Shown here: positions 14,379 to 61,100 of the stretch, in pieces
Layout: each line of letters starts with the position of its first letter
Position numbering within the stretch: position 1 is the stretch's first letter
From: Microbacteriaceae bacterium VKM Ac-2855
GTDB lineage: Bacteria; Actinomycetota; Actinomycetes; Actinomycetales; Microbacteriaceae
Reading direction: 5' to 3'
DNA: 64,000 nt
Assembly: GCA_013204985.1 (NCBI GenBank)
Contig: JABMLG010000003.1
Span: 434,001-498,000, forward strand
Made by a program: the position numbers and the translations under genes
Notes under the pieces: generated by a model
What the model was told of the DNA's origin: nothing
The model's input: the letters and a program-made list of their open reading frames with translations, nothing else
Database searches by the model: none

Positions 14379-14444
14379 GTCTCTTCCGCTCTCTCCTCGT
14401 TCCTCGTCGATCGCGCGCGGTCGGCTTCGCGACGGTGCCATCCT

Positions 14445-14517
14445 GCGAGGGACCCCTCCTGTGCACGCGGGACCCGCTCTGGGAGGGTCCCTGGCGCACA
14501 GAAGGGGTCCCTCGCAG
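14445..14517. repeat. Long nested palindrome, GAGGGACCC family, copy 1
   Basis: Two 21-nt arms (14445-14465 and 14497-14517) are complementary except at one position, and a second GGGACCC/GGGTCCC hairpin is nested inside (14470-14491). It lies 66 bp after the ABC ATPase gene and 70 bp before the next start. A related palindrome is at 44142-44211. It could act as a terminator or RNA-stabilising hairpin; there is no T tract. Confidence 0.85.
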
Positions 14518-16442: not shown

Positions 16443-16912
16443 TGCCTCGCAAGGGACCCGCTCCTAAGCGCCCCGTCGTTGCCGATCCGGTATACGGTGC
16501 GCCCATCGTCAGCCAGCTGGTGAACAAGATCCTGCTCGACGGCAAGAAGGGCCTGGCCGAGCGCATCGTCTACGGTGCCCTCGAAGGCGTCGCCGCGAAG
16601 AACGGTCAGGACGCCGTCGTCACGCTCAAGAAGGCGCTCGACAACGTGCGCCCCACCCTCGAGGTCCGCAGCCGCCGCGTCGGTGGCTCGACCTACCAGG
16701 TGCCCGTCGAGGTCAAGCCGCACCGCGCGAACACCCTCGCGCTGCGTTGGTTGACCAGCTACGCCAAGGCTCGTCGCGAGAAGACGATGACCGAGCGTCT
16801 GCAGAACGAGATCCTCGACGCGTCCAACGGCCTCGGTGCCGCTGTGAAGCGTCGTGAGGACACCCACAAGATGGCCGAGTCGAACAAGGCCTTCGCGCAC
16901 TACCGCTGGTAA
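16442..16912 (+). CDS. rpsG: 30S ribosomal protein S7
   Basis: S7, 156 residues, is the primary binder of the 3' major domain of 16S rRNA and forms part of the mRNA exit channel. Typical features are the N-terminal [10 protein letters not shown], the central [14 protein letters not shown] hairpin and the C-terminal [15 protein letters not shown]. The TAATG overlap with rpsL implies translational coupling. Downstream, where fusA normally follows closely, there are 310 bp with four tandem repeats. Confidence 0.99.
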
Positions 16913-16943
16913 CCACTCGCTGGTTCCCCAGCAGGCGGTATCG

Positions 16944-17131
16944 GTTTCCGCCTGGAAGCCGACTTCGTCGGTTCCCACGCGGGGGCATCAGTTTCCGTCT
17001 GGAAACCGACTCCGTCGGTTCCCACGCGGGGGCATCAGTTTCCGCCTGGAAACCGACTCCGTCGGTTCCCACGCGGGGGCATCAGTTTCCGTCTGGAAAC
17101 CGACTCCGTCGGTTCCCATGCGGGGGCTGCC
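16944..17131 (+). repeat. Four tandem 47-nt repeats between rpsG and fusA
   Basis: Units start at 16944, 16991, 17038 and 17085, each exactly 47 nt. Every unit can fold in two competing ways: GTTTCC pairs with GGAAAC across a 4-nt loop, or GGAAACCGAC pairs with GTCGGTTCCC across TCC. Most differences between copies fall in loops or make G-U pairs. The 47-nt period is not a multiple of three, so it is not coding. The rest of the 310-bp gap (16913-17222) holds only the fusA ribosome-binding site GGAGGA. Confidence 0.92.
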
Positions 17132-17222
17132 TCACCAGCACCACCCCGTCGAGTCGGGTCCGGGCCACGAGCCCGGATCCGACCCGCCGGTTCTCCCTCA
17201 TTCTTACTTTCGGAGGAACTCC

Positions 17223-19337
17223 GTGGCACAAGATGTGCTCACCGACCTGAACAAGGTCCGCAACATCGGCATCATGGCCCACATCGATGCCGGCAAGACC
17301 ACCACGACCGAGCGCATCCTGTTCTACACGGGTATCACGCACAAGATCGGTGAGGTCCACGACGGCGCTGCCACGATGGACTGGATGGCGCAGGAGCAGG
17401 AGCGTGGCATCACGATCACCTCCGCCGCCACGACGTGCTTCTGGAACAAGAACCAGATCAACATCATCGACACCCCGGGCCACGTCGACTTCACGGTCGA
17501 GGTCGAGCGCTCGCTGCGCGTGCTCGACGGTGCGGTCGCCGTCTTCGACGGCAAGGAGGGCGTCGAGCCCCAGTCCGAGACCGTCTGGCGTCAGGCCGAC
17601 AAGTACGACGTCCCCCGCATCTGCTTCGTCAACAAGATGGACAAGCTGGGCGCCGACTTCTACTTCACGGTCGACACCATCATCAAGCGCCTCGGCGCCA
17701 AGCCGCTGGTCATCCAGCTCCCGATCGGCGCGGAGTCCTCCTTCGAGGGTGTCATCGACCTGGTCGAGATGCGCGCGCTCACCTGGCGCGGCGACAGCAA
17801 GGGTGACGTCCAGTTGGGCGCCAAGTACGAGATCGAGCCGATCCCGGCCGACCTGCAGGAGAAGGCGGACGAGTACCGCCAGAAGCTGCTCGAGACCGTC
17901 GCCGAGACCAGCGACGAACTCCTCGAGAAGTACTTCGGCGGCGAAGAGCTGACCGTGGCCGAGGTCAAGGCCGCGATCCGCAAGCTGACCGTCAACTCGG
18001 ACATCTACCCCGTGTTGTGCGGTTCCGCTTTCAAGAACCGTGGCGTGCAGCCCATGCTCGACGCGGTCGTCGACTACCTCCCCTCCCCGCTCGACGTGCC
18101 GGCCATCGAGGCCCACGACGCGCGCGACGAGGAAAAGGTCGTCATGCGTCACGCCGACGCCACCGAGCCCTTCTCGGCGCTCGCCTTCAAGGTCGCGGTG
18201 CACCCGTTCTTCGGTCGCCTCACCTACGTGCGCGTCTACTCCGGCAAGCTCGACTCCGGTGCCCAGGTCATCAACTCGACCAAGGGCAAGAAGGAGCGCA
18301 TCGGCAAGATCTTCCAGATGCACTCCAACAAGGAGAACCCGGTCGACTCGGTCACCGCCGGTCACATCTACGCGGTCATCGGCCTCAAGGACACCACCAC
18401 CGGTGACACCCTGAGCGACCCCAACGCGCAGGTCGTGCTCGAATCGATGACCTTCCCGGAGCCCGTCATCGAGGTCGCCATCGAGCCGAAGACGAAGGCC
18501 GACCAGGAGAAGCTCGGTACCGCGATCCAGAAGCTCGCGGAAGAGGACCCCACCTTCCGCACCGAGCAGAACCAGGAGACCGGTCAGACGGTCATCAAGG
18601 GAATGGGCGAGCTGCACCTCGACATCCTGGTCGACCGCATGAAGCGCGAGTTCAACGTCGAGGCCAACGTCGGCAAGCCGCAGGTGGCCTACCGCGAGTC
18701 GATCAAGCGCTCGGTCGAGAAGTACGACTACACGCACAAGAAGCAGACCGGTGGTTCCGGCCAGTTCGCGAAGGTCCAGATCTCCATCGAGCCGATGGCG
18801 GTCGAGGCCGACAAGTCGTACGAGTTCGTGAACGCCGTCACCGGTGGTCGCATCCCGCGCGAGTACATCGGGTCGATCGATGCGGGCATCCAGGATGCGA
18901 TGCTCGTCGGCGTTCTCGCCGGCTACCCGATGGTGGGCGTCAAGGCGACCATCGTCGACGGTGCGGCGCACGATGTCGACTCCTCCGAAATGGCGTTCAA
19001 GATCGCCGGCTCCATGGCGTTCAAGGAGGCGGCTCGTAAGGCGCAGCCCGTCCTCCTCGAGCCGCTCATGGCCGTCGAGGTCCGCACGCCCGAGGAGTAC
19101 ATGGGCGACGTCATCGGCGACCTCAACTCGCGCCGTGGCATGATCCAGTCGATGGAGGACGCTTCCGGCGTCAAGGTCATCCGCGCGAACGTGCCGCTGT
19201 CCGAGATGTTCGGCTACATCGGCGACCTGCGCTCGAAGACCTCGGGCCGCGCCGTGTACTCGATGACGTTCGACTCCTACGCCGAGGTCCCCAAGGCCGT
19301 GGCCGAGGAGATCGTTCAGAAGAACAAGGGCGAGTAG
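17223..19337 (+). CDS. fusA: Elongation factor G
   Basis: EF-G, 704 residues, is the GTPase that drives translocation and, with recycling factor, ribosome splitting. G1 is [10 protein letters not shown], the switch II motif DTPGHVDF, and NKMDKLGA is G4; domains II-V follow with normal length. The GTG start at 17223 has GGAGGA 6 nt upstream and matches the family N-terminus [21 protein letters not shown]. The frame remains open upstream through the 47-nt repeats, but that extension is not conserved and lacks a ribosome-binding site. Confidence 0.99.
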
Positions 19338-19542: not shown

Positions 19543-20736
19543 GTGGCTAAGGCCAAGTTCGAGCGGACCAAGCCGCACGTAAACATCGGAACCATCGGTC
19601 ACGTCGACCACGGCAAGACCACGCTGACCGCTGCGATCTCGAAGGTTCTCGCCGACACGTACCCGTCGGCCACCAACGTCCAGCGCGACTTCGCGTCGAT
19701 CGACTCCGCTCCCGAGGAGCGCCAGCGCGGCATCACGATCAACATCTCGCACGTCGAGTACGAGACGCCGAAGCGCCACTACGCGCACGTCGACGCCCCC
19801 GGTCACGCCGACTACATCAAGAACATGATCACCGGCGCCGCTCAGATGGACGGCGCGATCCTCGTGGTCGCCGCCACCGACGGCCCGATGGCTCAGACCC
19901 GCGAGCACGTCCTCCTCGCCAAGCAGGTCGGCGTGCCGTACCTGCTCGTCGCCCTGAACAAGGCCGACATGGTCGATGACGAGGAGATCCTGGAGCTCGT
20001 CGAGCTCGAGGTCCGCGAGCTGCTGGCTTCGCAGGGCTTCGATGGCGACAACGCCCCCGTCGTCCGCGTCTCGGGCCTCAAGGCTCTCGAGGGCGACGCT
20101 GAGTGGACCAAGTCCATCCTCGAGCTCATGGACGCGGTCGACGAGTCGATCCCGGACCCGGTGCGCGACAAGGACAAGCCGTTCCTGATGCCGATCGAGG
20201 ACGTCTTCACGATCACCGGTCGTGGAACCGTCGTCACGGGCCGCGCCGAGCGTGGCACCCTCGCGCTCAACTCCGAGGTCGAGATCGTCGGCATCCGCCC
20301 GACGCAGAAGACCACGGTCACGGGTATCGAGATGTTCCACAAGCAGCTCGACGAGGCCTGGGCCGGCGAGAACTGTGGTCTGCTCCTCCGCGGCACCAAG
20401 CGCGAGGACGTCGAGCGCGGCCAGGTCGTCGTCAAGCCGGGTTCGGTCACGCCGCACACCGACTTCGAGGGCACCGCGTACATCCTGTCGAAGGATGAGG
20501 GTGGGCGTCACAACCCGTTCTACGCGAACTACCGTCCGCAGTTCTACTTCCGCACCACCGACGTCACCGGCGTCATCACGCTGCCCGAGGGCACCGAGAT
20601 GGTCATGCCCGGCGACACCACCGACATGACGGTCGCGCTGATCCAGCCGATCGCCATGGAGGAGGGCCTCGGCTTCGCCATCCGTGAGGGTGGACGCACC
20701 GTGGGTGCCGGTACGGTCACCAAGATCATCAAGTAA
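19543..20736 (+). CDS. tuf: Elongation factor Tu
   Basis: EF-Tu, 397 residues, carries aminoacyl-tRNA to the ribosome. G1 is GHVDHGKTT, switch [10 protein letters not shown], and NKADM provides guanine specificity; the three domains are complete and of normal length. The GTG start is 7 nt after TGAGGAGG. It closes the str operon and is followed at 20755-20794 by a strong terminator. In many relatives rpsJ follows next; here a 3.9-kb accessory segment intervenes. Confidence 0.99.
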
Positions 20737-20754
20737 GTCCGCTTACTGATCTCC

Positions 20755-20794
20755 GAGATGGGGGTCGTCCGCTTCGGTGGGCGGCCCCCATCTC
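20755..20794 (+). terminator. Terminator after tuf
   Basis: GAGATGGGGG pairs with CCCCCATCTC, extended by GTC/GGC pairs around a CGCTTCGG-type loop, and is followed by TGTTTC. It is 18 bp after the tuf stop. Confidence 0.85.
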
Positions 20795-20808
20795 TGTTTC
20801 TGCCGCCG

Positions 20809-20868
20809 CGCTGTCGTTTTCGCCGCGCGCTGGCGTTTTGCCACCCGCGCGTGGACTTTGTGACAGCG
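20809..20868. repeat. GCTGTCGTTTTC palindrome family, copy A (degenerate)
   Basis: Same outline as the copies at 23057, 24187 and 31397: CGCTGTCGTTTTC on the left, a CCGCGCGC core, and TGACAGCG on the right, but with several arm mismatches. It starts 14 bp after the tuf terminator and ends 7 bp before the next start codon. Confidence 0.7.
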
Positions 20869-20875
20869 TGGCGTG

Positions 20876-21634
20876 ATGGGTTTCGTCAAAGAGCGAGCGG
20901 ATGAGGCCGAGGGCTTCTTCGAGTGGGAGGCAGCCGGCCTGGCGTGGCTCGCGGCCGCCGGGGGAGCGCAATGCGTCGAGGTGCTGAGCGTCCGACCGTC
21001 ACGCATCGTCCTCGATCGTCTGACCTCGGTGCGTCCGACCGCCGCCGCCGCGCGCTCGTTCGGCACGGATCTGGCTCGCACGCACGATGCGGGAGCCGAG
21101 GCCTTCGGCTCACCGTCGCCGATGTGGCGCGGCCCGGCCTACATCGGCAGTCGACGGATGCCTTGCGTACCGACGCTCACGTGGGGTGCGTTCTACGCGG
21201 AGCAGCGCATCCGCCCCTTCCTCGATGTCGCCGAGGCCGCGGGGAACCTGACGCCGATGGCCCGCCGTACCGTCGAGGACGCCTGCGACCTGATCGCGTC
21301 GGGGCGCTTCGACGATCCCGCGCCTCCCGCTCGACTGCACGGCGACCTCTGGGCCGGCAACGTCATGTGGACGCCCGCCGGCGTCGTGCTGATCGATCCG
21401 GCCGCGCACGGTGGTCACCGCGAGACCGACCTCGCCATGCTCGCTCTCTTCGGGGCACCGTTCCTGGAGCAGATCCTGGCCGGCTACGAGGCCGCGCATC
21501 CGCTGCCATCGGGCTGGCGGCAGCGTGTGCCGCTGCACCAGATGCACCCGTTGGCCGTGCACGCGGCGGGCCACGGGCCGAGCTACGGCGCACCTCTCGA
21601 ACGGGCCGCGTTGTCAACCCTCGCGTCCGCGTGA
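20876..21634 (+). CDS. Fructosamine-kinase-like phosphotransferase
   Basis: A 252-residue protein of the fructosamine kinase/ketosamine-3-kinase family within the aminoglycoside phosphotransferase fold. The catalytic loop HGDLWAGN (His155, Asp157) and the metal-binding DPAAHGGHRETDLAM segment are intact; the N-lobe starts EWEAAGLAWL. Family members phosphorylate sugars attached to amines, releasing glycation adducts, but low-molecular-weight substrates are also known. The start is uncertain: ATG 20876 and GTG 20873 are adjacent and neither has a ribosome-binding site, because palindrome copy A ends just upstream. It is the first gene of the insert between tuf and rpsJ. Confidence 0.85.
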   Translation: MGFVKERADEAEGFFEWEAAGLAWLAAAGGAQCVEVLSVRPSRIVLDRLTSVRPTAAAARSFGTDLARTHDAGAEAFGSPSPMWRGPAYIGSRRMPCVPTLTWGAFYAEQRIRPFLDVAEAAGNLTPMARRTVEDACDLIASGRFDDPAPPARLHGDLWAGNVMWTPAGVVLIDPAAHGGHRETDLAMLALFGAPFLEQILAGYEAAHPLPSGWRQRVPLHQMHPLAVHAAGHGPSYGAPLERAALSTLASA

Positions 21635-21704
21635 GCGTTCGCCCAGGAGGGATGGGCAGACTGGGCGCAGATGTCCCGCACAGGACCCTGACGAAGGAGC
21701 AACG

Positions 21705-21917
21705 ATGGTCGATTTCGGACGCCTCGCCGGCAAGGCGAGCGAGTTGTTGAACAACCCCAAGACGCAGGATGCGTTGAAGAGCGAGAAGGCCGAGAAGGTC
21801 TCCGACACGGTGCTCGAGAAGGGTGGCGCTCTCGCCAGCAAGCTCACGGGCGGCACGTACGACCAGAAGATCGAAGAGATCAAGGCGAACGCCGACAAGC
21901 GCATCGGCAACGAATAA
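21705..21917 (+). CDS. Small MT0933-type antitoxin-like protein
   Basis: A 70-residue, lysine- and glutamate-rich, probably largely helical protein. The layout (short DFGRLAGKASELL start, KLTGGTYDQKIEEIKANADKRI end) resembles the MT0933-like antitoxin family of actinobacteria, a family named from a proposed toxin-antitoxin pair whose function is not well established. A clear GAAGGAG lies 5 nt before the ATG. No toxin-like gene is adjacent: the neighbours are a fructosamine-kinase-like gene and topoisomerase IB. It may therefore be a solitary stress-type protein. Confidence 0.65.
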   Translation: MVDFGRLAGKASELLNNPKTQDALKSEKAEKVSDTVLEKGGALASKLTGGTYDQKIEEIKANADKRIGNE

Positions 21918-22075
21918 CGTTCGCTCCAGAGGGGCACAGCCGTGTTCGCGCGACTGGGCCGCCTCGATGCGGAGGATTTCGACCGAACAGGGCCGACCCG
22001 AGTCATCGGGTCGGCCCTTCGCGTACGCCGGATGCTCACGCCGGTCAAGCCTCGGCGTGCTCCCGAGCCGCTCCG

Positions 22076-22081
22076 TAGGGT
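22076..22081 (+). promoter_or_regulatory. -10 box, probable leaderless promoter of topoisomerase IB
   Basis: TAGGGT, 6 nt before the GTG at 22088, with no recognisable ribosome-binding site. Confidence 0.5.
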
Positions 22082-22087
22082 CGAAGG

Positions 22088-23044
22088 GTGCGACTTCGAC
22101 GAACGGACTCCTCCGGGCGCGGCTTTACGCGAGTACGTGCCGGTACAGGCTTCAGCTACCGCGATGCGCGGGGCGCCACGGTGTCGGATGCCGAGCTGCG
22201 GGCCCGCTTCGATGGGCTCGGCATCCCGCCGGCCTGGCGCGATGTCTGGATCGCCCCCTACCCGAACGGACACATCCAGGCGACGGGTGTCGATGCGGCC
22301 GGACGACGCCAGTACATCTACCACCCGACCTGGCGTGAGCAGAAGGATCGGATCAAATTCGACCGCTCCCTGCGGCTCGCCGAGTCGCTGCCCGGCGCCC
22401 GCCGCGGTGTGACCCTCGCCCTTCGTTCCGACGGAGCGACGCGGGAGCGTGCTCTAGCAGCGGCCTTCCGGATGCTCGACACCGGGTCGCTTCGCATCGG
22501 CAGCGAGCGCTACGCGAAGGAGCACGGCAGTATCGGCCTCTCGACGCTGCTCTGCGCCCACGCGAGTACGCACGGTGATCGGGTGGCCCTGGCCTTTCCG
22601 GGAAAGAGCCACCAGGCCTGGACGAGCGAGATCCTGGACGCCGATCTTGCGGCCTTCATCCGCTCCTTGAAGCGGCGGGGGCCCAACGCCCGGCTGTTGG
22701 CGTACCGGGACGGCTGCGAGTGGCATCCGCTCGCGGCGACCGAGATCAACGAGTTCGTGCGCGAGCGCGCCGGCGGCGACTTCTCGGCGAAGGATTTTCG
22801 CACGCTGCACGGGACCATCGCTGCCGGCGTGAGCCTCGCCCGCACGGGCTTCCAGCCCACGGTGCGAGCGCGCAACGCGGCGATCACCCAATCGATGCGC
22901 GACGCCGCGGCGGTTCTGGGCAACACCCCGGCGATCGCCCGGGCGAGCTACGTCGATCCCCGCCTGCTCGACCACTATCGCGCCGGTGAGATGCTGGACC
23001 CGGGCCGCCCCGAGTCCTCCCTCCGCGCCCTCCTCTTCGAGTAG
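22088..23044 (+). CDS. DNA topoisomerase IB (poxvirus-like)
   Basis: A 318-residue type IB topoisomerase that relaxes DNA supercoils through a 3'-phosphotyrosyl intermediate. Catalytic elements are present: the arginine in LRIGSERYAKEHGSIGL, the arginine and histidine in DFRTLHGT, and the nucleophile Tyr288 in the SYVDP motif. The N-terminal domain carries the GIPPAWRDVWIAPYPNGHIQ-type segment usual for bacterial members (shown in part). The GTG start is supported by a TAGGGT box 6 nt upstream. Bacterial TopIB genes are typically accessory and scattered, fitting its place in the insert between tuf and rpsJ. Palindrome copy B follows 12 bp after the stop. Confidence 0.92.
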   Translation: MRLRRTDSSGRGFTRVRAGTGFSYRDARGATVSDAELRARFDGLGIPPAWRDVWIAPYPNGHIQATGVDAAGRRQYIYHPTWREQKDRIKFDRSLRLAESLPGARRGVTLALRSDGATRERALAAAFRMLDTGSLRIGSERYAKEHGSIGLSTLLCAHASTHGDRVALAFPGKSHQAWTSEILDADLAAFIRSLKRRGPNARLLAYRDGCEWHPLAATEINEFVRERAGGDFSAKDFRTLHGTIAAGVSLARTGFQPTVRARNAAITQSMRDAAAVLGNTPAIARASYVDPRLLDHYRAGEMLDPGRPESSLRALLFE

Positions 23045-23056
23045 CCCTCCCTCCGC

Positions 23057-23118
23057 GCGCTGTCGTTTTCACCGCGCGCGGGTGTTTTGCCTGCAGCGCG
23101 CGGTGAAAACGACAGCGC
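23057..23118. repeat. GCTGTCGTTTTC palindrome family, copy B
   Basis: Perfect 23-bp arms (23057-23079 and 23096-23118) around a 16-nt loop; flanking CTCC/GGAG bases extend the pairing. It is located just after the topoisomerase stop codon. Confidence 0.93.
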
Positions 23119-23243
23119 CGTAGGAGGGTGCACGGTGTGTCGGCGAGCGCGTCGGTTCCTCCACAGGCACGGATAAGCCGAGAAGTTCGCAGATCAGGCC
23201 CTCGCGCCTTCGAGCGCAGCTGGGGCCGTGCGAGCCTCTCGGA

Positions 23244-24182
23244 ATGAAGCCGATCGCAGCCCGTCCGAATGGACTCCTCACGTCCTCGACCTTCGAGATC
23301 CGCGGGATGGATCCTCGGCGGCTGCGTCGAGGAGTCGCGGCCGGTGACTACGTGCGGATCAAGAAGGGCGCCTATTGCGCGGCGGATGAATGGGCCGCCA
23401 TGTCGGCTCTGGAGCGCCACATCATGCTCGTTCATGCCGTTGCGGAGTCCAATCCGGATGTCGTCTTCTCGCACTGGTCGGCCGCGGCGCTGCGAGGCCT
23501 CCCGATTTTCGGTCGATGGCCGGCAGAGGTGCACGTCCTCGAGCAGCGGACCGACGGCGGTCGGTCCGAACCGTACGTGCGCAAGCACTGCCTCGGCTAC
23601 CGGGAGAACGAGATCGAGACCATCGATGGAGCCCTGCGACTCACCACGTCGTTGCGTACCGCGATCGACATGGGAGCGGGGTCCTCCTTCGAGACCGCGG
23701 TCATCCTGATGGATGCCGCGCTGCATCGTGACGACTTCACGCGCTCGGACCTGGTGCAGCGGCTCGCGGAGGCGAAGCCGCATCGCGGCGGACGTGTCCT
23801 CGCCCGCGCCGGACGATTCTCGGACGGTCTTTCGGAGAGCCCGGGCGAATCGCTCAGTCGCGTGCGCATCCATCAACTCGGCTTCCCGCAGCCGGAGTTG
23901 CAGAAGGAGCGGGTCTGGCCCGACGGTCGCGTGGAGCGGCCGGACTTCGACTGGCCCGCTTTCCGGCTGATCGGGGAGTTCGACGGGAAGGGCAAGTACC
24001 TCAAGCCGGAATACCTGGGGTCGATGACACCGGGGGAGGCGGTCTACGCCGAGAAGCGTCGGGAGGACCGCTTCCGCTCGGTCGGAGACGGGTGCGCGCG
24101 CTGGGGCTGGCCCGAGCTGATGCAGCCGGACCTGCTGGCCCGGATTCTGCTGGATGCAGGGCTGTCACGTCAGCATCTGTAG
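23244..24182 (+). CDS. AbiEi-like N-terminal domain protein with nuclease-like C-terminal segment
   Basis: A 312-residue protein. Residues 1-60 look like the winged-helix antitoxin-type domain seen in AbiEi proteins (RGMDPRRLRRGVAAGDYVRIKKGAY). The middle has the FSHWSAAALRGLP segment usual in that family. Near residues 232-253 there is a pattern resembling a PD-(D/E)xK nuclease core: P-D-F-D, then IGEFDGKGKY. Similar proteins in Micrococcales are called hypothetical or AbiEi-family; neither antitoxin nor nuclease activity is shown. No cognate AbiEii toxin is adjacent. The gene stands alone between palindrome copies B and C, like a cassette. The ATG lacks a good ribosome-binding site. Confidence 0.7.
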   Translation: MKPIAARPNGLLTSSTFEIRGMDPRRLRRGVAAGDYVRIKKGAYCAADEWAAMSALERHIMLVHAVAESNPDVVFSHWSAAALRGLPIFGRWPAEVHVLEQRTDGGRSEPYVRKHCLGYRENEIETIDGALRLTTSLRTAIDMGAGSSFETAVILMDAALHRDDFTRSDLVQRLAEAKPHRGGRVLARAGRFSDGLSESPGESLSRVRIHQLGFPQPELQKERVWPDGRVERPDFDWPAFRLIGEFDGKGKYLKPEYLGSMTPGEAVYAEKRREDRFRSVGDGCARWGWPELMQPDLLARILLDAGLSRQHL

Positions 24183-24186
24183 CAGC

Positions 24187-24248
24187 TGCGCTGTCGTTTT
24201 CACCGCGCGCGGGTGGCATGCCTGCTGCGCGCGGTGAAAAGGACAGCA
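24187..24248. repeat. GCTGTCGTTTTC palindrome family, copy C
   Basis: Left arm 24187-24210 and right arm 24227-24248 pair with one mismatch (AAAAGGACAG in place of AAAACGACAG). It begins 5 bp after the stop of the AbiEi-like gene. Confidence 0.9.
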
Positions 24249-24644
24249 CAACAGGGGAAAAGTCGCGACACGCCCGGGTTGCATGGACCCCGGATGTGTG
24301 CGAAACTTCTGTAGTTCAAAATTTCCGTTGCGTGAGCGGATCCGGCCTGGCCGAGATCAGCTCAGACCAGCGGGACACTGCCAGTGCAGTGCATGAGCCA
24401 GACCGCGTTCGCGTGGGTCGGCGCAGGCGGCGGGTAGCAGAACGAAACAACCGACAACTCTACGGGCTCTCCGACTGTCGTGCGTTCTGCGTGCGACTTC
24501 CGAAGCGCCCCGGAGGATCCGGTTCTCGACAGAAGAACATGCGGTGCGCCACCAGGAGCACCGAGCGTTTAGACGCCGCGTCCAATGCGATGGAGTCCCA
24601 CAGGACTGCACGTAAGACGCAATAACAAGAGAGCGAGTACTCAC
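24249..24644 (+). other. Upstream region and leader of the S10 operon
   Basis: About 396 bp without a supported gene. It contains an A/T-rich patch around 24300-24330 that may hold the S10 promoter, but no -35/-10 pair with good spacing could be assigned. A weak purine-rich AAGAGAG precedes rpsJ. Confidence 0.4.
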
Positions 24645-24953
24645 ATGGCGGGACAGAAGATCCGCATCCGACTGAAGTCGTACGACCACGAGGTCATCGA
24701 CACGTCGGCCCGCAAGATCGTCGACACGGTGACCCGTGCCGGTGCAACGGTCGTCGGCCCCGTGCCGCTGCCGACGGAGAAGAACGTCATCTGCGTGATC
24801 CGTTCTCCTCACAAGTACAAGGACAGCCGCGAGCACTTCGAGATGCGCACGCACAAGCGTCTGATCGACATCATCGACCCGACCCCCAAGGCCGTCGACT
24901 CGCTCATGCGTCTCGACCTGCCGGCGGACGTCAACATCGAGATCAAGCTCTGA
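24645..24953 (+). CDS. rpsJ: 30S ribosomal protein S10
   Basis: S10, 102 residues, head of the 30S subunit; it also binds NusB in antitermination. The whole protein is conserved in length and ends with the usual [11 protein letters not shown] at 24645 was chosen over an in-frame start 20 codons upstream because [19 protein letters not shown] is the family N-terminus. First gene of the S10 operon (rpsJ-rplCDWB-rpsS-rplV-rpsC-rplP-rpmC-rpsQ), 22 bp before rplC. Confidence 0.99.
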
Positions 24954-24975
24954 GCGGGATAGGACAAGAGAAATC

Positions 24976-25644
24976 ATGACTGTCACCGTTTCCCCCACCA
25001 CCAAGACCTCCAAGGGTCTGCTGGGCACGAAGCTCGGCATGACGCAGGTCTGGGACGAGAACAACAAGCTCGTTCCCGTCACCGTGATCGAGATCGCTCC
25101 GAACGTCGTGACCCAGGTCCGCACGGAGGAGAAGGACGGCTACTCGGCCGTGCAGATCGCCGCCGGTGCCATCGACCCGCGCAAGGTCAACAAGCCTGCC
25201 GGTGGTCACTTCGACGCCGCGGGTGTCACCCCCCGTCGCCACCTCACCGAGGTCCGCACCTCCGACGCCTCCGAGTACTCGGCCGGCCAGGAGCTGACCG
25301 TCGGCGCCGTCTTCGAGGCCGGCACCAAGGTCGACGTCGTCGGCACCAGCAAGGGCAAGGGCTTCGCCGGTGTTATGAAGCGTCACAACTTCAAGGGCGT
25401 CTCCGCTTCGCACGGTTCGCACCGCAACCACCGCAAGCCGGGCTCCATCGGTGCCTCCTCGACCCCGAGCCGTGTCTTCAAGGGCATGCGCATGGCCGGT
25501 CGTATGGGTGGCGAGCGCGTCACCGTGCTCAACCTCAAGGTGCACTCCGTCGACACCGAGAAGGGTCTGCTGCTCGTCAAGGGCGCCGTCCCCGGTGCGC
25601 GTGGCCGCCTCGTGTTCGTTCGCAACGCCGTGAAGGGAGCGTAG
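24976..25644 (+). CDS. rplC: 50S ribosomal protein L3
   Basis: L3, 222 residues, one of the first proteins in 50S assembly, with a long finger reaching the peptidyl transferase centre. Typical segments are [12 protein letters not shown] at the N-terminus, the [16 protein letters not shown] loop and the [13 protein letters not shown] finger base. It follows rpsJ closely with an AAGAG ribosome-binding site and precedes rplD by 5 bp. Confidence 0.99.
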
Positions 25645-25649
25645 TTTCC

Positions 25650-26297
25650 ATGGCTACCCTCAACATCGTCGACGCCCAGGGCGCTCAGACCGGTACGGTC
25701 GAGCTCCCCGCCGAGCTCTTCGACGTCCAGACCAACGTCCCCCTCATCCACCAGGTCGTCGTGGCCCAGCTCGCCGCGGCGCGCCAGGGTACCCACAAGA
25801 CCAAGAACCGTGGTGAGGTCTCCGGCGCCGGCCGCAAGCCGTTCAAGCAGAAGGGCACCGGCCGCGCCCGTCAGGGTTCGATCCGCGCCCCGCACATGAC
25901 CGGTGGTGGTGTCGTGCACGGCCCGACACCCCGCAACTACGCGCAGCGCACCCCCAAGAAGATGATCGCCGCGGCTCTGCTCGGTGCCCTCTCCGACCGC
26001 GCTCGCGGTGCCCGTCTCCACGTCGTCGAGTCGCTCGCCATCGGCGAGACCCCGAAGACCAAGGATGCGATCAACCTGCTCAACACCATCGCGACGTCGA
26101 AGCACGTCCTGGTGGTCCTCGAGCGCGATGACTTCATCGCCGAGCTGTCGCTGCGCAACATCCCGACCGTGCACATCCTGCCGTTCGACCAGCTGAACGC
26201 GTACGACGTGCTCGTCTCCGACGACATCGTCTTCTCGAAGGGCGCCCTCGAGGGCTTCATTGCGAGCAAGACCAAGAAGGAAGAGGTTTCCGCATGA
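25650..26297 (+). CDS. rplD: 50S ribosomal protein L4
   Basis: L4, 215 residues, lines the nascent-peptide exit tunnel. The extended tunnel loop is visible ([22 protein letters not shown], read here in two parts) with the macrolide-relevant lysine and glycine region intact. It overlaps rplW by 4 nt (ATGA), the usual coupling in this operon. No C-terminal extension is seen. Confidence 0.99.
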
Positions 26298-26602
26298 CTC
26301 AGTCGGCCGCCTTCAACAAGGACCCGCGCGACATCATCATCTCGCCCGTCGTCTCCGAGAAGTCCTACAGCCTGATCGACAACGGCAAGTACACCTTCGT
26401 GGTGGACCCCCGCTCGAACAAGACCGAGATCAAGCTCGCCATCGAGAAGATCTTCGGAGTCGAGGTCGCCTCGATCAACACCCTGAACCGTCAGGGCAAG
26501 ACCCGCCGCACCAAGTTCGGCACCGGCAAGCGCAAGGACACCAAGCGCGCGATCGTCACGCTGAAGTCCGGATCCATCGACATCTTCACGAGCGTCGGCT
26601 AA
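26294..26602 (+). CDS. rplW: 50S ribosomal protein L23
   Basis: L23, 102 residues, sits at the tunnel exit and docks trigger factor and SRP. The family core [15 protein letters not shown] begins near residue 15 and the [16 protein letters not shown] loop follows. Translation is coupled to rplD through a 4-nt overlap; rplB starts 28 bp downstream after its own ribosome-binding site. Confidence 0.99.
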
Positions 26603-26630
26603 GGCCCCGGAAGCGTAGAGGAACAAGACA

Positions 26631-27470
<840 letters not shown>

Positions 27471-27482
27471 GAGTAACGGAAG

Positions 27483-27764
27483 ATGCCTCGCAGTCTCAAG
27501 AAGGGCCCCTTCGTTGACGACCACCTGCTTCGCAAGGTGTTCACGGCCAACGAAGCCGGCAACAAGAACGTCATCAAGACCTGGTCGCGCCGTTCGATGA
27601 TCATCCCCGCCATGCTGGGACACACCATCGCCGTGCACGACGGTCGCAAGCACATCCCCGTGTTCGTGACCGAGACCATGGTCGGCCACAAGCTCGGCGA
27701 GTTCGCCCCTACTCGGACCTTCCGCGGTCACGAGAAGGACGACAAGAAGGGCCGTCGCCGCTGA
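27483..27764 (+). CDS. rpsS: 30S ribosomal protein S19
   Basis: S19, 93 residues, in the 30S head next to the A-site finger bridge. The whole sequence matches the family from [16 protein letters not shown] to the basic C-terminus [12 protein letters not shown]. It follows rplB by 12 bp with GGAG upstream, and rplV begins 25 bp later. Confidence 0.99.
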
Positions 27765-27789
27765 CGCGGCGACGTGAAGGAGGAAAGAA

Positions 27790-28155
27790 ATGGTGGAGTC
27801 GATCGCCCGCGTGCGACACATCCGCGTCACCCCCCAGAAGGCTCGCCGCGTCGTCAACCTGATCCGCGGTAAGCAGGCTCAGGAGGCCCTGGCCATCCTG
27901 AAGTTCGCCGAGCAGGGCGCTTCGGAGCCCGTCTACAAGCTGGTGGCTTCGGCCATCGCGAACGCTCGTGTCAAGGCCGACGCCTCGAACGAGTACCTCG
28001 ACGAGCAGGACCTCTACGTGTCCAGCGCCTTCGTCGATGAGGGAACCACCCTCAAGCGATTCCAGCCCCGTGCTCAGGGTCGTGCCTTCCGCATCAACAA
28101 GCGCACCAGCCACATCACGGTTGTGCTGGCCACTCCTGAGGAGGGGACCAAGTAA
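27790..28155 (+). CDS. rplV: 50S ribosomal protein L22
   Basis: L22, 121 residues, contributes the beta-hairpin that lines the exit tunnel near the macrolide site ([19 protein letters not shown] region, residues about 84-102). A strong AAGGAGGAAAG ribosome-binding site precedes the start. Its stop codon shares one base with the rpsC start (TAATG). Confidence 0.99.
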
Positions 28156-28910
28156 TGGGTCAGAAAGTAAACCCCTACGGTTTCCGTCTGGGAATCACGA
28201 CCGACCACGTGTCGCGTTGGTTCTCCGACAGCACCAAGAAGGGCCAGCGTTACAGCGACTACCTCGCGGAGGACGTCAAGATCCGTCGTCTCCTCGCGAC
28301 GCAGCTCGACCGTGCGGGCGTCGCTCGCATCGAGATCGAGCGCACCCGTGACCGCGTCCGCGTCGACATCCACACCGCCCGTCCGGGCATCGTGATCGGT
28401 CGTCGTGGCGCCGAGGCCGAGCGCATCCGCGCCGACCTCGAGAAGCTCACGGGCAAGCAGATCCAGCTGAACATCCTCGAGGTCAAGAACCCCGAGGCCG
28501 AGGCTCAGCTCGTCGCGCAGGGTATCGCCGAGCAGCTCTCCGCTCGTGTGGCTTTCCGCCGCGCGATGCGTAAGGGTCTGCAGGGCGCGCAGCGCGCCGG
28601 CGCCAAGGGTGTCCGCATCCAGGTCTCGGGCCGCCTCGGCGGCGCGGAGATGTCGCGCTCGGAGTTCTACCGCGAGGGTCGCGTGCCGCTGCACACCCTT
28701 CGCGCGAACATCGACTACGGCTTCTACGAGGCCAAGACCACCTTCGGCCGCATCGGCGTGAAGGTCTGGATCTACAAGGGCGACATCACCAACAAGGAAC
28801 TCGCCCGCGAGCAGGCCAACACCAAGCCGCGTAGCGACCGTAACGACCGTCCGCGTCGTGCCCCGCGCCAGCAGGCCGAGGCGCCCGTCGCAGCAGGAGT
28901 TGAGGCATAA
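28155..28910 (+). CDS. rpsC: 30S ribosomal protein S3
   Basis: S3, 251 residues, part of the mRNA entry pore with helicase activity. The KH domain motif [14 protein letters not shown] is visible near residues 77-91. The C-terminal 35 residues form a basic, proline- and arginine-rich tail ([15 protein letters not shown]) typical of actinobacterial S3. Coupled to rplV by a one-base overlap; rplP follows after 2 bp. Confidence 0.99.
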
Positions 28911-28912
28911 CC

Positions 28913-29331
<419 letters not shown>

Positions 29332-29332
<1 letters not shown>

Positions 29333-29664
29333 TGGCTCTCGGATCCAAGGAGCTCGCACCCACCGAGCTCGACACCTTCGAAGACGAGCGTCTCGTCACC
29401 GAGCTGAAGAAGGCCAAGGAAGAGCTGTTCAACCTGCGCTTCCAGTCGGCCACCGGCCAGCTCGACACCAACGGCCGCCTGCGTGCCGTCAAGCGCGACA
29501 TCGCCCGCATCTACACGGTCATCCGTGAGCGCGAGCTCGGTATTCGCGCCACCCCCGCACCCGTCGAGGCTCCGGCCAAGGCGGAGAAGAAGGCCCCCAA
29601 GGCGAAGAAGGCCGACAAGGCCGTCGACGCTCCGGCGGCTGACACGAATGAGGAGGCCAAGTAA
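29332..29664 (+). CDS. rpmC: 50S ribosomal protein L29 with C-terminal extension
   Basis: L29 at the tunnel exit. The conserved helical hairpin occupies residues 1-75 ([14 protein letters not shown] and the [14 protein letters not shown] segment). At 110 residues it is much longer than the usual 60-80 because of an alanine/lysine/proline-rich C-terminal tail ([19 protein letters not shown]). Such tails occur in actinobacterial L29, where they may bind rRNA or be disordered. One-base overlaps on both sides tie it to rplP and rpsQ. Confidence 0.97.
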
Positions 29665-29978
29665 TGGCAACGGCTAACGAAACCGCCGGCCACGAGTCGG
29701 CCGCTCACGATGTGAAGGCTGCGGACGCCCGCGGCTACCGCAAGACCCGTCGTGGCTACGTCACGAGCGACAAGATGGAGAAGACCATCGTCGTCGAGGT
29801 CGAAGACCGCGTGAAGCACCCCCTGTACGGCAAGGTCATCCGCCGCACGTCGAAGGTCAAGGCTCACGATGAGCTGAACGCCGCCGGCATCGGCGACCTG
29901 GTCGTCATCAGCGAGACCCGTCCCCTGAGCGCCTCCAAGCGCTGGCGCCTGGTCGAGATCCTCGAGAAGGCCAAGTAG
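29664..29978 (+). CDS. rpsQ: 30S ribosomal protein S17
   Basis: S17, 104 residues, a 30S body assembly protein with an OB fold. The core begins at about residue 25 ([19 protein letters not shown]) after an N-terminal extension rich in alanine, glutamate and histidine that is not part of the standard domain. The C-terminal [17 protein letters not shown] is typical. Last gene of the tightly packed S10 block; rplN starts 35 bp downstream. Confidence 0.98.
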
Positions 29979-30013
29979 GCCTCGCGGGCTACTTGAGTTA
30001 GTAGGAGAAGAAC

Positions 30014-30382
30014 ATGCTGCAGCAAGAATCCCGGGTCAAGGTCGCCGACAACACGGGTGCGAAGGAACTGCTCACCATCCGCGTTCTCGGGGGCTCCGGC
30101 CGTCGTTACGCGGGTCTCGGTGACATCATCGTCGCCACCGTCAAGGACGCCATTCCCGGTGGAAACGTCAAGAAGGGCGATGTGGTCAAGGCCGTCATCG
30201 TCCGTACCGTCAAGCAGACCCGTCGTTCCGACGGTTCGTACATCAAGTTCGACGAGAACGCCGCCGTGATCCTGAAGAACGACGGGGACCCCCGCGGTAC
30301 CCGTATCTTCGGACCGGTCGGTCGCGAGCTTCGCGACAAGAAGTTCATGAAGATCGTCTCGCTGGCACCGGAGGTTATCTAG
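30014..30382 (+). CDS. rplN: 50S ribosomal protein L14
   Basis: L14, 122 residues, at the subunit interface. [20 protein letters not shown] and the C-terminal [12 protein letters not shown] are diagnostic. It starts the spc block; the ribosome-binding site AGGAGA is 5 nt upstream. rplX follows after 2 bp. Confidence 0.99.
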
Positions 30383-30384
30383 TC

Positions 30385-30744
30385 ATGGCCAAGATCAAGA
30401 AGGGTGACCTCGTCCAGGTCATCTCGGGCGCTACCCAGGCCCGCGGCGGAGATCGCGGCAAGCAGGGCAAGGTCCTCGAGGTCCTGGTCGAGCGCAACCG
30501 CGTCGTCGTCGAGGGTGTGAACTTCGTCAAGAAGCACAACCGCGTCGGCCAGTCGCAGCGCGGCTCGAAGGAGGGCGGCATCGAGACCATCGAGGCCCCC
30601 ATCCACATCTCTAACGTCGCACTCGTCGACCCCAAGACCAAGAAGCCGACCCGCGTCGGACACCGCAACGTGTCCGTCACGAAGGACGGCGTGACCAAGA
30701 CGGTTCGCGTTCGTTACGCGAAGTCGTCCGGCGAGGAGCTGTAA
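30385..30744 (+). CDS. rplX: 50S ribosomal protein L24
   Basis: L24, 119 residues, initiates 50S assembly. The KOW motif [16 protein letters not shown] is at the N-terminus. Slightly longer than the classical 104 residues, with the usual actinobacterial C-terminal part ending SSGEEL. Overlaps rplE by one base. Confidence 0.99.
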
Positions 30745-31325
30745 TGGCGGACACCGCTACGGCTGAGAAGGCTCAGCCGCGCCTCAAGGCGAAGTACAAG
30801 GCCGACATCGTTCCCGTTCTCAAGGAGCAGTTCGGTTTCGGCAACATCCACCAGGTCCCCGGCCTGGTCAAGGTGGTCGTGAACACCGGTGTCGGCGAGG
30901 CCGCCCGCGATGGCAAGATCATCGACGGCGCCATCAAGGACCTCACCGCGATCACCGGCCAGAAGCCGCAGGTCACGAAGGCCCGCAAGTCCATCGCGCA
31001 GTTCAAACTGCGTGAGGGCCAGGCCATCGGCGCACACGTCACCCTTCGCGGCGACCGTGCGTGGGAGTTCCTGGATCGTCTCGTGAACGTGGCGCTGCCC
31101 CGTATCCGTGACTTCCGCGGCCTCTCGGACCGTCAGTTCGACGGCAACGGAAACTACACCTTCGGTATCACCGAGCAGTCGATCTTCCACGAGATCGATC
31201 AGGACCGTATCGACCGCGTGCGTGGCTTCGACATCACCGTCGTGACCACCGCGAAGACGGATGACGAGGGCCGCGCGCTGCTCAAGCAGCTCGGCTTCCC
31301 GTTCAAGACGGCCGACAACAACTAA
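30744..31325 (+). CDS. rplE: 50S ribosomal protein L5
   Basis: L5, 193 residues, binds 5S rRNA and contacts the P-site tRNA. The conserved [22 protein letters not shown] and [17 protein letters not shown] segments are intact. In most bacteria rpsN follows directly; here rplE is followed by a strong intrinsic terminator (31344-31389) and a palindromic repeat, so it is the end of a transcription unit. Confidence 0.99.
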
Positions 31326-31343
31326 GGTCCTTCGACCTCGAGG

Positions 31344-31389
31344 GCTGTCGCTTCTCCTCCATCCGTGGGGGAGGAGCGGCAGCTTTTTT
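31344..31389 (+). terminator. Intrinsic terminator after rplE
   Basis: GCTGTCGC...CTCCTCC pairs with GGAGGAG-CGGCAGC and is followed directly by TTTTTT, the only clear T-tailed terminator inside a ribosomal protein operon of this window. Confidence 0.93.
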
Positions 31390-31396
31390 GTGTCGG

Positions 31397-31454
31397 GCTG
31401 TCGTTTTCACCGCGCGCGGGTGGCGTGCCACCCGCGCGCGGTGAAAACGACAGC
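31397..31454. repeat. GCTGTCGTTTTC palindrome family, copy D (perfect)
   Basis: A 58-nt perfect palindrome: 28-nt arms with a 2-nt centre (GT). It is the best-preserved copy and lies 8 bp after the rplE terminator. Confidence 0.95.
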
Positions 31455-31475
31455 GCAGGGGCACGCAACTCGTAC

Positions 31476-31505
31476 TTGTCCGGCATCCGCGCCATAGCGT
31501 ATGAT
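31476..31505 (+). promoter_or_regulatory. Promoter for rpsH and the second half of the spc operon
   Basis: TTGTCC, 18-bp spacer, TATGAT. The predicted start near 31514 gives a leader of about 147 nt that opens with GGC and a GCGCG/CGCGC hairpin. With the upstream terminator, this makes rpsH-map an independent transcription unit. The remaining part of the 335-bp gap between rplE and rpsH is this leader; no rpsN gene is present. Confidence 0.75.
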
Positions 31506-31660
31506 CGGACGCTGGCTTGCCATGCGCGTTCGCGCGCGTACAGGCCGCAGTCCCGCGGTCACGCGGGGCGAATGGGCACCGGCCACCGTCGGTGCCGTCA
31601 CACCACAGGTCGGCCCCGGTGTACCGGGAGTCGAAACCAGGCGAAAGGCACCATCAGCTC

Positions 31661-32059
31661 ATGACCATGACTGATCCGGTCGCAGATCTGCTGACCAGAA
31701 TCCGTAACGCCAACTCGGCGCATCACGACTCCATCACCCTCCCGGGCTCGAAGCTCAAGGCGCACATCGCCGAGATCCTCAAGCTCGAGGGTTACATCGC
31801 CGACTGGAAGGTCGAGGAGGCGCGCGTCGGTACGGCGCTCACCATCTCCCTCAAGTACGGCCCGAACCGCGAGCGTTCGATCGCGGGCATCAAGCGCGTG
31901 TCGAAGCCCGGCCTGCGCGTCTACGCGAAGTCCACGGAGATCCCGAACGTCCTCGGTGGCCTCGGCGTCGCAATCCTGTCCACCTCAAGCGGGCTCCTCA
32001 CGGACCGCCAGGCCGTCAAGAAGGGCGTAGGTGGGGAAGTCCTCGCCTACGTGTGGTAA
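31661..32059 (+). CDS. rpsH: 30S ribosomal protein S8
   Basis: S8, 132 residues, a central 16S rRNA binder. [23 protein letters not shown] is the standard actinobacterial N-terminus, which fixes the ATG at 31661 rather than the longer upstream frame. The C-terminal [13 protein letters not shown] is invariant in the family. First gene after the break in the spc operon; rplF starts 6 bp after the stop. Confidence 0.99.
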
Positions 32060-34426: not shown

Positions 34427-34476
34427 GGTCGAGCTTGCCACGCGAATCCCTCGGGGAGCGCGTGGCAAGCTCGACC
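34427..34476. repeat. 18-bp perfect inverted repeat between rplO and secY
   Basis: Arms 34427-34444 and 34459-34476 (GGTCGAGCTTGCCACGCG and its complement) are perfect, with a 14-nt loop. It begins 16 bp after the rplO stop and ends 37 bp before secY. It could attenuate transcription or set the mRNA ratio between ribosomal proteins and SecY. Confidence 0.85.
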
Positions 34477-37385: not shown

Positions 37386-37451
37386 GTCTCCGGGTTGCCG
37401 TTTCTTTGACGCTCGCTGGCGCTCGTGTCAAAGAAACGGCAACCCGGAGAC
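37386..37451. repeat. 25-bp perfect inverted repeat between map and the mtlR-type gene
   Basis: Arms 37386-37410 and 37427-37451 are fully complementary with a 16-nt loop. It touches the mtlR-type stop codon (37453) and lies 65 bp after map, so it probably serves as a bidirectional terminator between convergent genes. Confidence 0.9.
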
Positions 37452-40291: not shown

Positions 40292-40327
40292 CGCGTGACG
40301 CGTAGCGTCACGAAAGGCGGCAGCCCT

Positions 40328-40540
40328 CACGCGAGCACCTGCGAACCGTAACGGCGACCCTCAATGGGTCGCATCAAGGCTTCCGCCCCTCACGCAAGCA
40401 CCTGCGAACTGTAACGGCGACCCTCAATGGGTCGCATCAACGCTTCCGCCCTTACGGCGCAACCTGCGAAACGTAACGGGGTCGCATCAAGGCTTCCGCC
40501 CCGAAGGCGCAACCGGCAATCCGTGACGGCGACCCTCACC
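40328..40540 (+). repeat. 63-nt tandem repeats between ptsH and ptsI
   Basis: Two full copies (from 40328 and 40391) are followed by a copy lacking about 12 nt and a diverged partial copy. Each full unit carries a perfect GCGACCC-TCAAT-GGGTCGC hairpin. The rest of the 358-bp ptsH-ptsI gap has a GTGACGC/GCGTCAC hairpin right after ptsH and an A/C-rich stretch before the ptsI ribosome-binding site GAGAGGA; no gene is seen. Confidence 0.88.
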
Positions 40541-44141: not shown

Positions 44142-44211
44142 ACGAGGGAACCCGTAGTGTGCGAGGGGGTCGGTCATGACCGACTCCCGCGTGCACAACG
44201 GGTTCCCTCGT
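44142..44211. repeat. 70-bp near-palindrome, GAGGGACCC family, copy 2
   Basis: Two 34-nt arms around a 2-nt centre, with five mismatches. The outer part (CGAGGGAACCC...TGTGC) resembles the element at 14445-14517. It lies between mtlA and mtlF and may lower read-through or stabilise the mtlA message. Confidence 0.85.
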
Positions 44212-60745: not shown

Positions 60746-60780
60746 CCCGCGTCGACCGGTTCGCGCCCGGCCCTGGTGGG

Positions 60781-61100
60781 TCGGGGTGGTCGCGGAGCGT
60801 CCGTTTCGGGGCCGTGCGGGGGCGGTTCGCGTCAACCCGGATTTTGCCGTCGGTGGGGTGGCGGTCGGGGTGGTCGCGTACCGTCCGTTTCGGGGCCGTG
60901 CGGGGGCGGTTCGCGTCAACCCGGGTTTTGCCGTGGGTGGGGTGAGGGTCGGGGTGGTCGCGGAGCGTCCGTTTCGGGGCCGTGCGGGGGCGGTTTGCGT
61001 CAACCCGGGTTTTGCCGTCGGCGGGGTGAGGGTCGGGGTGGTCGCGGAGCGTCCGTTTCGGGGTCGTGCGGGGGCGGTTCGCGACAACCCGGGCTTCGAC
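60781..61100 (+). repeat. 84-nt G-rich tandem repeats between glmM and coaA
   Basis: About 3.8 copies with exact 84-nt spacing (the CGTCCGTTTCGG block recurs at 60798, 60882, 60966 and 61050). The plus strand has repeated G-runs, including GGGTGGGGTGAGGGTCGGGG at 60935-60954, which satisfies the G-quadruplex pattern. The repeat fills the 383-bp gap between convergent genes. Frames through it stay open only because 84 is divisible by three and stop codons are rare; no gene is called. Confidence 0.9.

Follow-up and report, generated by a model that had tools for sequence, protein, structure and literature searches.

The DNA analysed here, hereafter the window, is a 64,000-nucleotide stretch of Microbacteriaceae bacterium VKM Ac-2855 (contig JABMLG010000003.1, positions 434,001 to 498,000) that includes tuf, rpsJ, rplE and rpsH. 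It contains four copies of one palindrome of 58-66 bp, designated family A, two of which bracket a gene of the AbiEi type (Table 1). This number is far above chance, as a search of the window with the 21-nt arm, allowing up to three mismatches, returned seven matches against 0.00 expected from shuffled sequences. The core of family A is 58 bp long with 21-nt arms, and extends to about 66 bp with the consensus CYGC/GCRG. All four copies named in a preliminary description of this DNA, including the two with perfect arms, were recovered. As that description had it, they are intergenic and follow a stop codon or a terminator: with genes called by a simple caller made for this analysis, the copies lie 73, 14, 7 and 71 nt from the preceding stop codon, and a terminator-like hairpin, judged by eye, precedes the first and fourth. 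When folded as single strands, three of the four copies form a near-continuous hairpin and the first a less complete one (z from -4.1 to -10.5). No Rfam family matches within window positions 20700-31700.

Copies A2 and A3 enclose only one called gene, and the resulting palindrome-gene-palindrome cassette has topoisomerase IB and rpsJ as its neighbours. The encoded protein matches Pfam AbiEi_4 (E 7e-7) and PADLOC AbiEi (E 3.7e-13, residues 4-173); NCBIfam gives only a weak, irrelevant match, and the PDB only matches with E values of 0.8-1. Twenty-two aligned members of the gene family fall into two subgroups. In the subgroup with the genes of families C, D and G, eight members match REase_MTES_1575 (PF18741) and six of those also match DUF559 (PF04480), and a sequence search links the window protein to this subgroup over residues ~57-280. 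E202 and R206 are invariant across the aligned members, and D234, E245 and D247 nearly so, a set that we take to be a PD-(D/E)XK-like pattern. To judge from these features, the window protein is probably DNA-binding and DNA-cutting. No AbiEii partner was found within the cassette or as its neighbour, AbiEii not having been searched for elsewhere in the genome. The few named plasmid matches are annotated as hypothetical protein, AbiEi family antitoxin or DUF559, and no relatives in viral contigs were confirmed.

In the preliminary description, the first three copies were thought to delimit blocks of an insert between tuf and rpsJ, and the fourth to mark a break in the spc operon. Neither view was borne out as stated by comparison with 15 genomes of the genus. 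All 15 have tuf, the FN3K-like gene and the MT0933-like gene before rpsJ (with a partial FN3K match in G003), 14 have topoisomerase IB DNA at the tuf-rpsJ region (judged by DNA homology only), and all 15 have the rplE-rpsH spacer; 13 of them lack the family A palindrome at up to two mismatches. Palindromes as insert edges in general were rejected, and the cassette-boundary reading fails for most of the region, because relatives without the palindrome keep the same gene order and because other copy pairs bracket ordinary host genes. The suggestion of recombination sites that bound cassettes does hold for copies 2 and 3. Their gene is the sole variable one between tuf and rpsJ, present in three of the 15 genomes: the source genome (G000; 4.71 Mb, 26 contigs), its closest carrier relative, a sister species (G012), and G002. 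The sister species carries a homolog of the whole unit at a different site, with the gene split into two frames and the palindromes included in the alignment. At the window's own site, it carries another member of the gene family, which lies between copies of an unrelated palindrome, designated family E.

Homologs of the bracketed gene are widespread: searches recovered them from 13 of 15 genomes of the genus, from 71 of 90 at the level of the family and from 78 of 198 at that of the phylum, and the source genome alone gives seven gene-family matches. Pairing was scored by local alignment of a gene's two flanks in both orientations, with a threshold of 20. Both orientations reached this score at 37 of 72 target genes, compared with two of 157 control genes, all from the source genome, and six of 2000 permuted pairs. 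The 72 loci comprise the 28 best matches of 28 family-level genomes, 24 genus-search loci and 20 picked from a list; the set is non-random, includes orthologs and leaves out the split gene of the sister species (two hits). The window gene is one of the two scoring controls. If a match in either orientation is accepted, 52 of the 72 target genes score (permuted, 0.9% of 1500), as do 15 of 28 phylum-search loci (permuted, none of 1500); the pairing recurs across the phylum. A looser score was passed by 67 of 99 loci, L293 being left out; the shared flank repeat is usually palindromic, and a palindrome of 46-84 nt was recovered from 49 of the 67. Some flank windows began at the profile match instead of the start codon, and the L212 pair, which scores 29, is uncounted. 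In many cases ~70 nt or less separates the downstream palindrome from the stop codon, or the palindrome reaches into the gene end. Moreover, the pairing is specific to each gene: in 11 multi-gene genomes, a gene's own flanks matched in 28 of 41 cases and the flanks of different genes in none of 152.

Table 1. Palindromes, bracketed gene and gene-family loci in the window and in the source genome (G000). Plain positions are window coordinates.
Feature	Position	Strand	Remarks
Palindrome copy A1	20806..20871		58-bp core 20810-20867; tuf-FN3K spacer; decayed right arm, 8 mismatches
Boxes of copy A1	20810-20821 and 20829-20840		19 bp spacing; both plainly visible
Palindrome copy A2	23055..23120		58-bp core 23059-23116; perfect 23-bp arms; 125 nt upstream of the bracketed gene
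Palindrome copy A3	24186..24251		58-bp core 24190-24247; 7 nt past the stop codon of the bracketed gene
Palindrome copy A4	31393..31458		58-bp core 31397-31454; rplE-rpsH spacer; perfect 28-bp arms
Bracketed gene	23244..24182	+	312-aa AbiEi-type winged-helix protein; C-terminal part homologous to relatives' DUF559/MTES_1575 domains
Whole cassette, palindrome-gene-palindrome	23055..24251	+	71% DNA identity, end to end, with the unit of the sister species (G012)
Family B palindrome	14443..14517		own gene at G000:C20:517562
Family C palindrome	37386..37451		own gene at G000:C26:30711
Window gene in the source genome	G000:C20:457244		palindrome A on both sides
Family B gene	G000:C20:517562		palindrome B on both sides
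Family C gene	G000:C26:30711		palindrome C on both sides
Family G gene	G000:C24:123678		palindrome G on both sides
Homolog	G000:C26:211624		flank repeat in one orientation
Family F gene	G000:C12:636929		no flank repeat

The 49 recovered palindromes share an architecture. The outer box recurs in the same arm at a shift of 19 bp, with a mean of 4.86 of 9 positions matching against 3.02 expected (standard deviation 0.18). At this shift, 14 of the 49 palindromes match at 7 or more of the 9 positions, while the other shifts from 12 to 30 give zero to two such palindromes. For family A, 19 is likewise the best shift among 12 to 27. Two boxes per arm at this spacing would suit a multimeric protein bound along one face of the DNA. 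In 44 copies of family A, the two halves of the palindrome differ in the arms by 1.41 mismatches versus 1.72 when shuffled, a value equalled but never bettered in 2000 shuffles. The apex halves (3.39 mismatches versus 2.80 shuffled, standard deviation 0.17) match less than shuffled ones, and the apex is thus asymmetric.

Across the source genome, the family A arm has 85 matches at up to three mismatches, and the reversed pattern none. These form 46 sites after one chance match (C1:64193) is dropped, and in 43 of them both arms, with up to four mismatches, lie at exactly 58 bp. With the same simple gene caller, 45 of the 46 are intergenic, which bears out the preliminary description of a REP-like (repetitive extragenic palindromic) element. 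The spacers are co-directional at 25 sites, convergent at 14 and divergent at six, and convergent spacers make up only 5.4 of the 37.6 kb of spacer sequence sampled; a stop codon lies within 150 nt of 38 of the 46 sites. The copies are somewhat clustered, with seven pairs of neighbouring sites within 3.3 kb versus 1.45 expected. Genes read from their translations as alcohol dehydrogenase-, carbonic anhydrase- and glyoxalase-like lie between other A pairs; a reading of such host genes as cargo was considered and dropped. One of them, a zinc-dependent alcohol-dehydrogenase-like gene (L043 3089-4303), is the only control besides the window gene with matching flanks. The chance match aside, only C1:685745 lacks a second arm, and another copy lies 605 bp away from it. 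The two sites there (L033 2445-3107, G000:C1:685745-686407) are separated by ~550 bp, which we take to resemble a decayed transposase gene, and the orthologous place in the sister species has a palindrome-gene-palindrome unit. A full-length insertion sequence with A ends was rejected as a candidate, all sites but this one being two-armed.

Outside the source genome, family A is sparse. It has about 20 sites in the sister species and, at up to two mismatches, occurs in only two of the 15 genus genomes, namely the source genome and the sister species, the same two that carry the A-type gene. Three of 398 family-level genomes contain it, the third with a single one-arm match. In a collection of named genomes, the exact arm is found in 19 stretches, 18 from Microbacteriaceae bacterium VKM Ac-2854 and one, a single arm, in a Streptomyces metagenome-assembled genome. 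Other families are dispersed in the same fashion. For example, matches to the family E palindrome number 126 in the sister species and 42 in G002, both of which have the E-type gene (56% identical between them), two in G003, one in G011 and none in the 11 others. The family C arm has 173 matches in the source genome, 11 imperfect ones in the sister species, whose homolog of the C gene is 66% identical and has a different palindrome, and none in the five other genus genomes searched; family C also forms tandem and inverted arrays. The palindrome of a gene in G522 has 71 matches in that genome, nine in G594 (same family; its own genes were not part of the palindrome-gene comparison) and none in 10 other genomes. 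In 400 kb of G073, between one and three additional matches were found for the palindrome of each of four out of six query genes. Among the families tested, palindromes abound alongside the matching gene and are rare or absent elsewhere. The same 400 kb contain six copies (L271, L272, L273, L278, L281, L283) of ~75-130-bp palindromes with ACGACGGAGATT arms, which differ from those of the G073 genes examined.

Different families appear to occupy the same places in related genomes. Within a syntenic block of ~128 kb with 68 spacers, an element is present in 13 spacers of the source genome and 15 of the sister species, and 11 of these are shared (Fisher p 6e-8). At shared sites the families mostly differ: all four A sites hold E in the sister species, a B site is taken by another palindrome, and a C site by B together with an additional one; at two shared sites the palindrome is the same or a similar one. 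At the locus of the B gene in the source genome, six relatives carry a gene-family member with different flanks. On one side of this locus flank identity is 84-87% up to ~12 nt from the palindrome, and on the other it resumes ~30-100 nt past the palindrome. G001 and G005 align at 88% over this locus, yet their boxes differ (GAGGGAACCCC versus GAGACGTCC) in both flanking palindromes.

Several other repeats of the window were recorded. A palindrome at 44142-44211 (ACGAGGGAACCC...) is kept in sequence and place in the sister species, unlike the dispersed families, and was scored as unshared; it is perhaps a regulatory site of the downstream gene. A 50-bp inverted repeat at 34427-34476 has a similar counterpart at the orthologous place in the sister species. 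Tandem 47-bp units occupy 16915-17149, near the start of a long open frame (16854-19337), a roughly 50-nt repeat in four imperfect copies lies at 40304-40528, and a tandem array of three overlapping 151-nt repeats spaced by 84 nt lies at 60778-61096.

The closest parallel among known systems is that of REPs and the REP-associated tyrosine transposases (RAYTs), whose genes have been described with two inverted REPs around them, many near or directly after the stop codon (PMC2817692). Likewise, the present palindromes are short, intergenic and numerous, with several families per genome; a gene, though not every homolog, lies between two copies of its own repeat with one directly after the stop; and at least family C forms tandem and inverted arrays. 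The differences lie in the palindromes, which are longer and have boxes at 19-bp spacing, and in the enzyme. The preliminary description had proposed looking for a RAYT; none was found in the source genome, and the associated gene is of another kind, an AbiEi-type gene with a DUF559/Vsr-like region in place of a Y1/HUH enzyme. Resemblance to the AbiE type IV toxin-antitoxin system lies in the AbiEi winged helix and its adjoining region, recognized by both AbiEi profiles, and in the inverted repeats upstream of its own gene to which AbiEi binds, reported for its own promoter as an 11-bp repeat that can be extended to 23 bp (PMC3985639). Unlike AbiE, the cassette has no second gene, and hence no AbiEii partner inside, and it has an extra nuclease-like C-terminal region and palindromes on both sides and genome-wide. 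A probable link to the DUF559/REase_MTES_1575 Vsr-like domains lies in the C-terminal matches of eight of the 22 aligned members and in the E, R, D, E-x-D pattern of the others. The MTES_1575 domain, by contrast, has been described within a large multidomain protein (PMC3710099), and no account of such genes with palindromic repeats was found. With miniature inverted-repeat transposable elements and insertion sequences, the palindromes share inverted-repeat ends and non-autonomous copies; they differ in the lack of target-site duplication in family A and in that at 43 of 46 A sites the two arms are joined, at exactly 58 bp, and do not form separate element ends. The open-access literature yielded no account of AbiEi/DUF559 genes paired with palindromic repeats, although subscription papers may be missed. 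The REP/RAYT-like logic has a known parallel; in enzyme and in the architecture of its palindromes, the system corresponds to none of the named repeat systems compared.

The reading we prefer, with a little better than even confidence, is that the AbiEi-nuclease-like gene uses the palindromes that bracket it as its unit of recognition and dispersal. It draws on the pairing of gene and palindrome and the specificity of that pairing, on the dispersal of several palindrome families in step with their genes, on the common box spacing and on the known binding of AbiEi to inverted repeats. The winged-helix module would bind the boxes, two per arm and 19 bp apart, much as AbiEi binds inverted repeats, and the nuclease would cut at or near its own palindrome or at a target. 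Repair or strand transfer would then place new palindrome copies in intergenic spacers near gene ends, and occasionally, though rarely, the whole palindrome-gene-palindrome cassette as well. What would fit these observations best is a mode of life like that of REP/RAYT, run by an enzyme of unrelated origin.

Several observations weigh against this reading. At the looser threshold, 32 of 99 homologs have no shared flank repeat, including a group of orthologs in G002, G004 and G008 that lack palindromes, and the two flanks of family F are unlike each other. No palindrome of family G was seen in a 300-kb sample of the source genome that excludes its own gene. Target duplications, which the preliminary description had proposed looking for, did not appear: around 45 family A copies, direct repeats in the flanks were not clearly more frequent than in shuffled pairs. 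The nuclease assignment of the window protein is indirect, through the profiles of the related subgroup and the conserved residues, for neither PF18741 nor PF04480 matches the window protein or its subgroup (families B, E and F), and the eight nuclease-profile matches among the 22 aligned members all fall in the other subgroup. Finally, across genera the palindromes of related proteins have no common sequence. A Mantel test of whether protein and palindrome diverge together across genera gave r 0.13 (p 0.0005), but it was not counted as support, because none of 2032 cross-genus palindrome pairs scores as high as 16 for similarity.

A different account, which we regard as unlikely, makes the palindromes operators of an AbiEi-type autorepressor, with the dispersed copies serving as a regulon or as titration sites and the nuclease-like region serving otherwise. 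AbiEi is reported to repress its own promoter through inverted repeats (PMC3985639), each gene here has its own palindrome, and the upstream copy stands 125 nt before the start codon; however, the second copy lies just past the stop codon, only six of the 46 copies are between divergent genes and 14 are between convergent ones, and 13 of 15 genus genomes do without the palindrome. Proximity to gene ends (38 of 46 copies within 150 nt of a stop codon) would instead suit terminators or mRNA-stabilising hairpins, with any hairpin sufficing and the bracketed gene being incidental, and so would the occupation of 11 of the 13 element spacers of the 128-kb block in the sister species, mostly by another family. 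This possibility appears quite improbable. A T-run of an intrinsic terminator is not seen directly after the core, as T is not enriched over the eight positions that follow it in 45 family A copies (0-4 copies with T at +1 to +4, 2-10 at +5 to +8); copies 1 and 4 come after an existing terminator-like hairpin; and a need for hairpins leaves the family-specific bracketing of one gene family unexplained.

The AbiEi-like profiles, the nuclease-like profiles of relatives and the private palindrome of each gene are also compatible with a self/non-self system, in which its palindromes, when present or bound, keep the protein from cleaving DNA and the dispersed copies are immunity or addiction sites. 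We give this little credence, since one gene between the palindromes leaves no partner methylase or toxin in the cassette and 32 of 99 homologs are maintained although no flank pair is detected around them. Classical REPs mobilised by a RAYT, a Y1 tyrosine transposase, agree in size, in intergenic dispersal and in two-sided bracketing of one gene (PMC2817692). CGTC-type REPs are described as having no associated transposase (PMC3733652). RAYT-moved REPs were nonetheless rejected, and scarcely any likelihood is left to them: PF01797 has no match in the source genome, while the same search was positive in five of 14 named control genomes, and the consensus of 45 family A copies, with CYGC before and GCRG after the core, contains no GTAG or CGTC foot. 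Operator, terminator and self/non-self roles could operate alongside dispersal by the bracketed gene.

The same layout, with gene-specific hairpins, in many relatives suggests an undescribed self-spreading repeat system. A wider proposal, plausible but held tentatively, is that an undescribed class exists throughout the Actinomycetota, made up of AbiEi-nuclease fusion genes, each bracketed by and spreading a private palindrome with boxes 19 bp apart. Such a class would be an independent REP/RAYT-like solution, whose rival families vie for shared intergenic sites and displace one another there, with their cassettes as well. If the dispersal reading is true, it would provide a partner and a role for a very common actinobacterial gene family and an origin for many unexplained actinobacterial hairpin repeats. 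It would also provide a second, non-homologous case of how dispersed bacterial palindromes spread and why they are found at gene ends, and would bear on whether they come to serve the host. The bracketed gene and its palindrome offer a directly testable protein-DNA pair, and gene-specific palindromes would constitute ready specificity data for a family of DNA-binding proteins.

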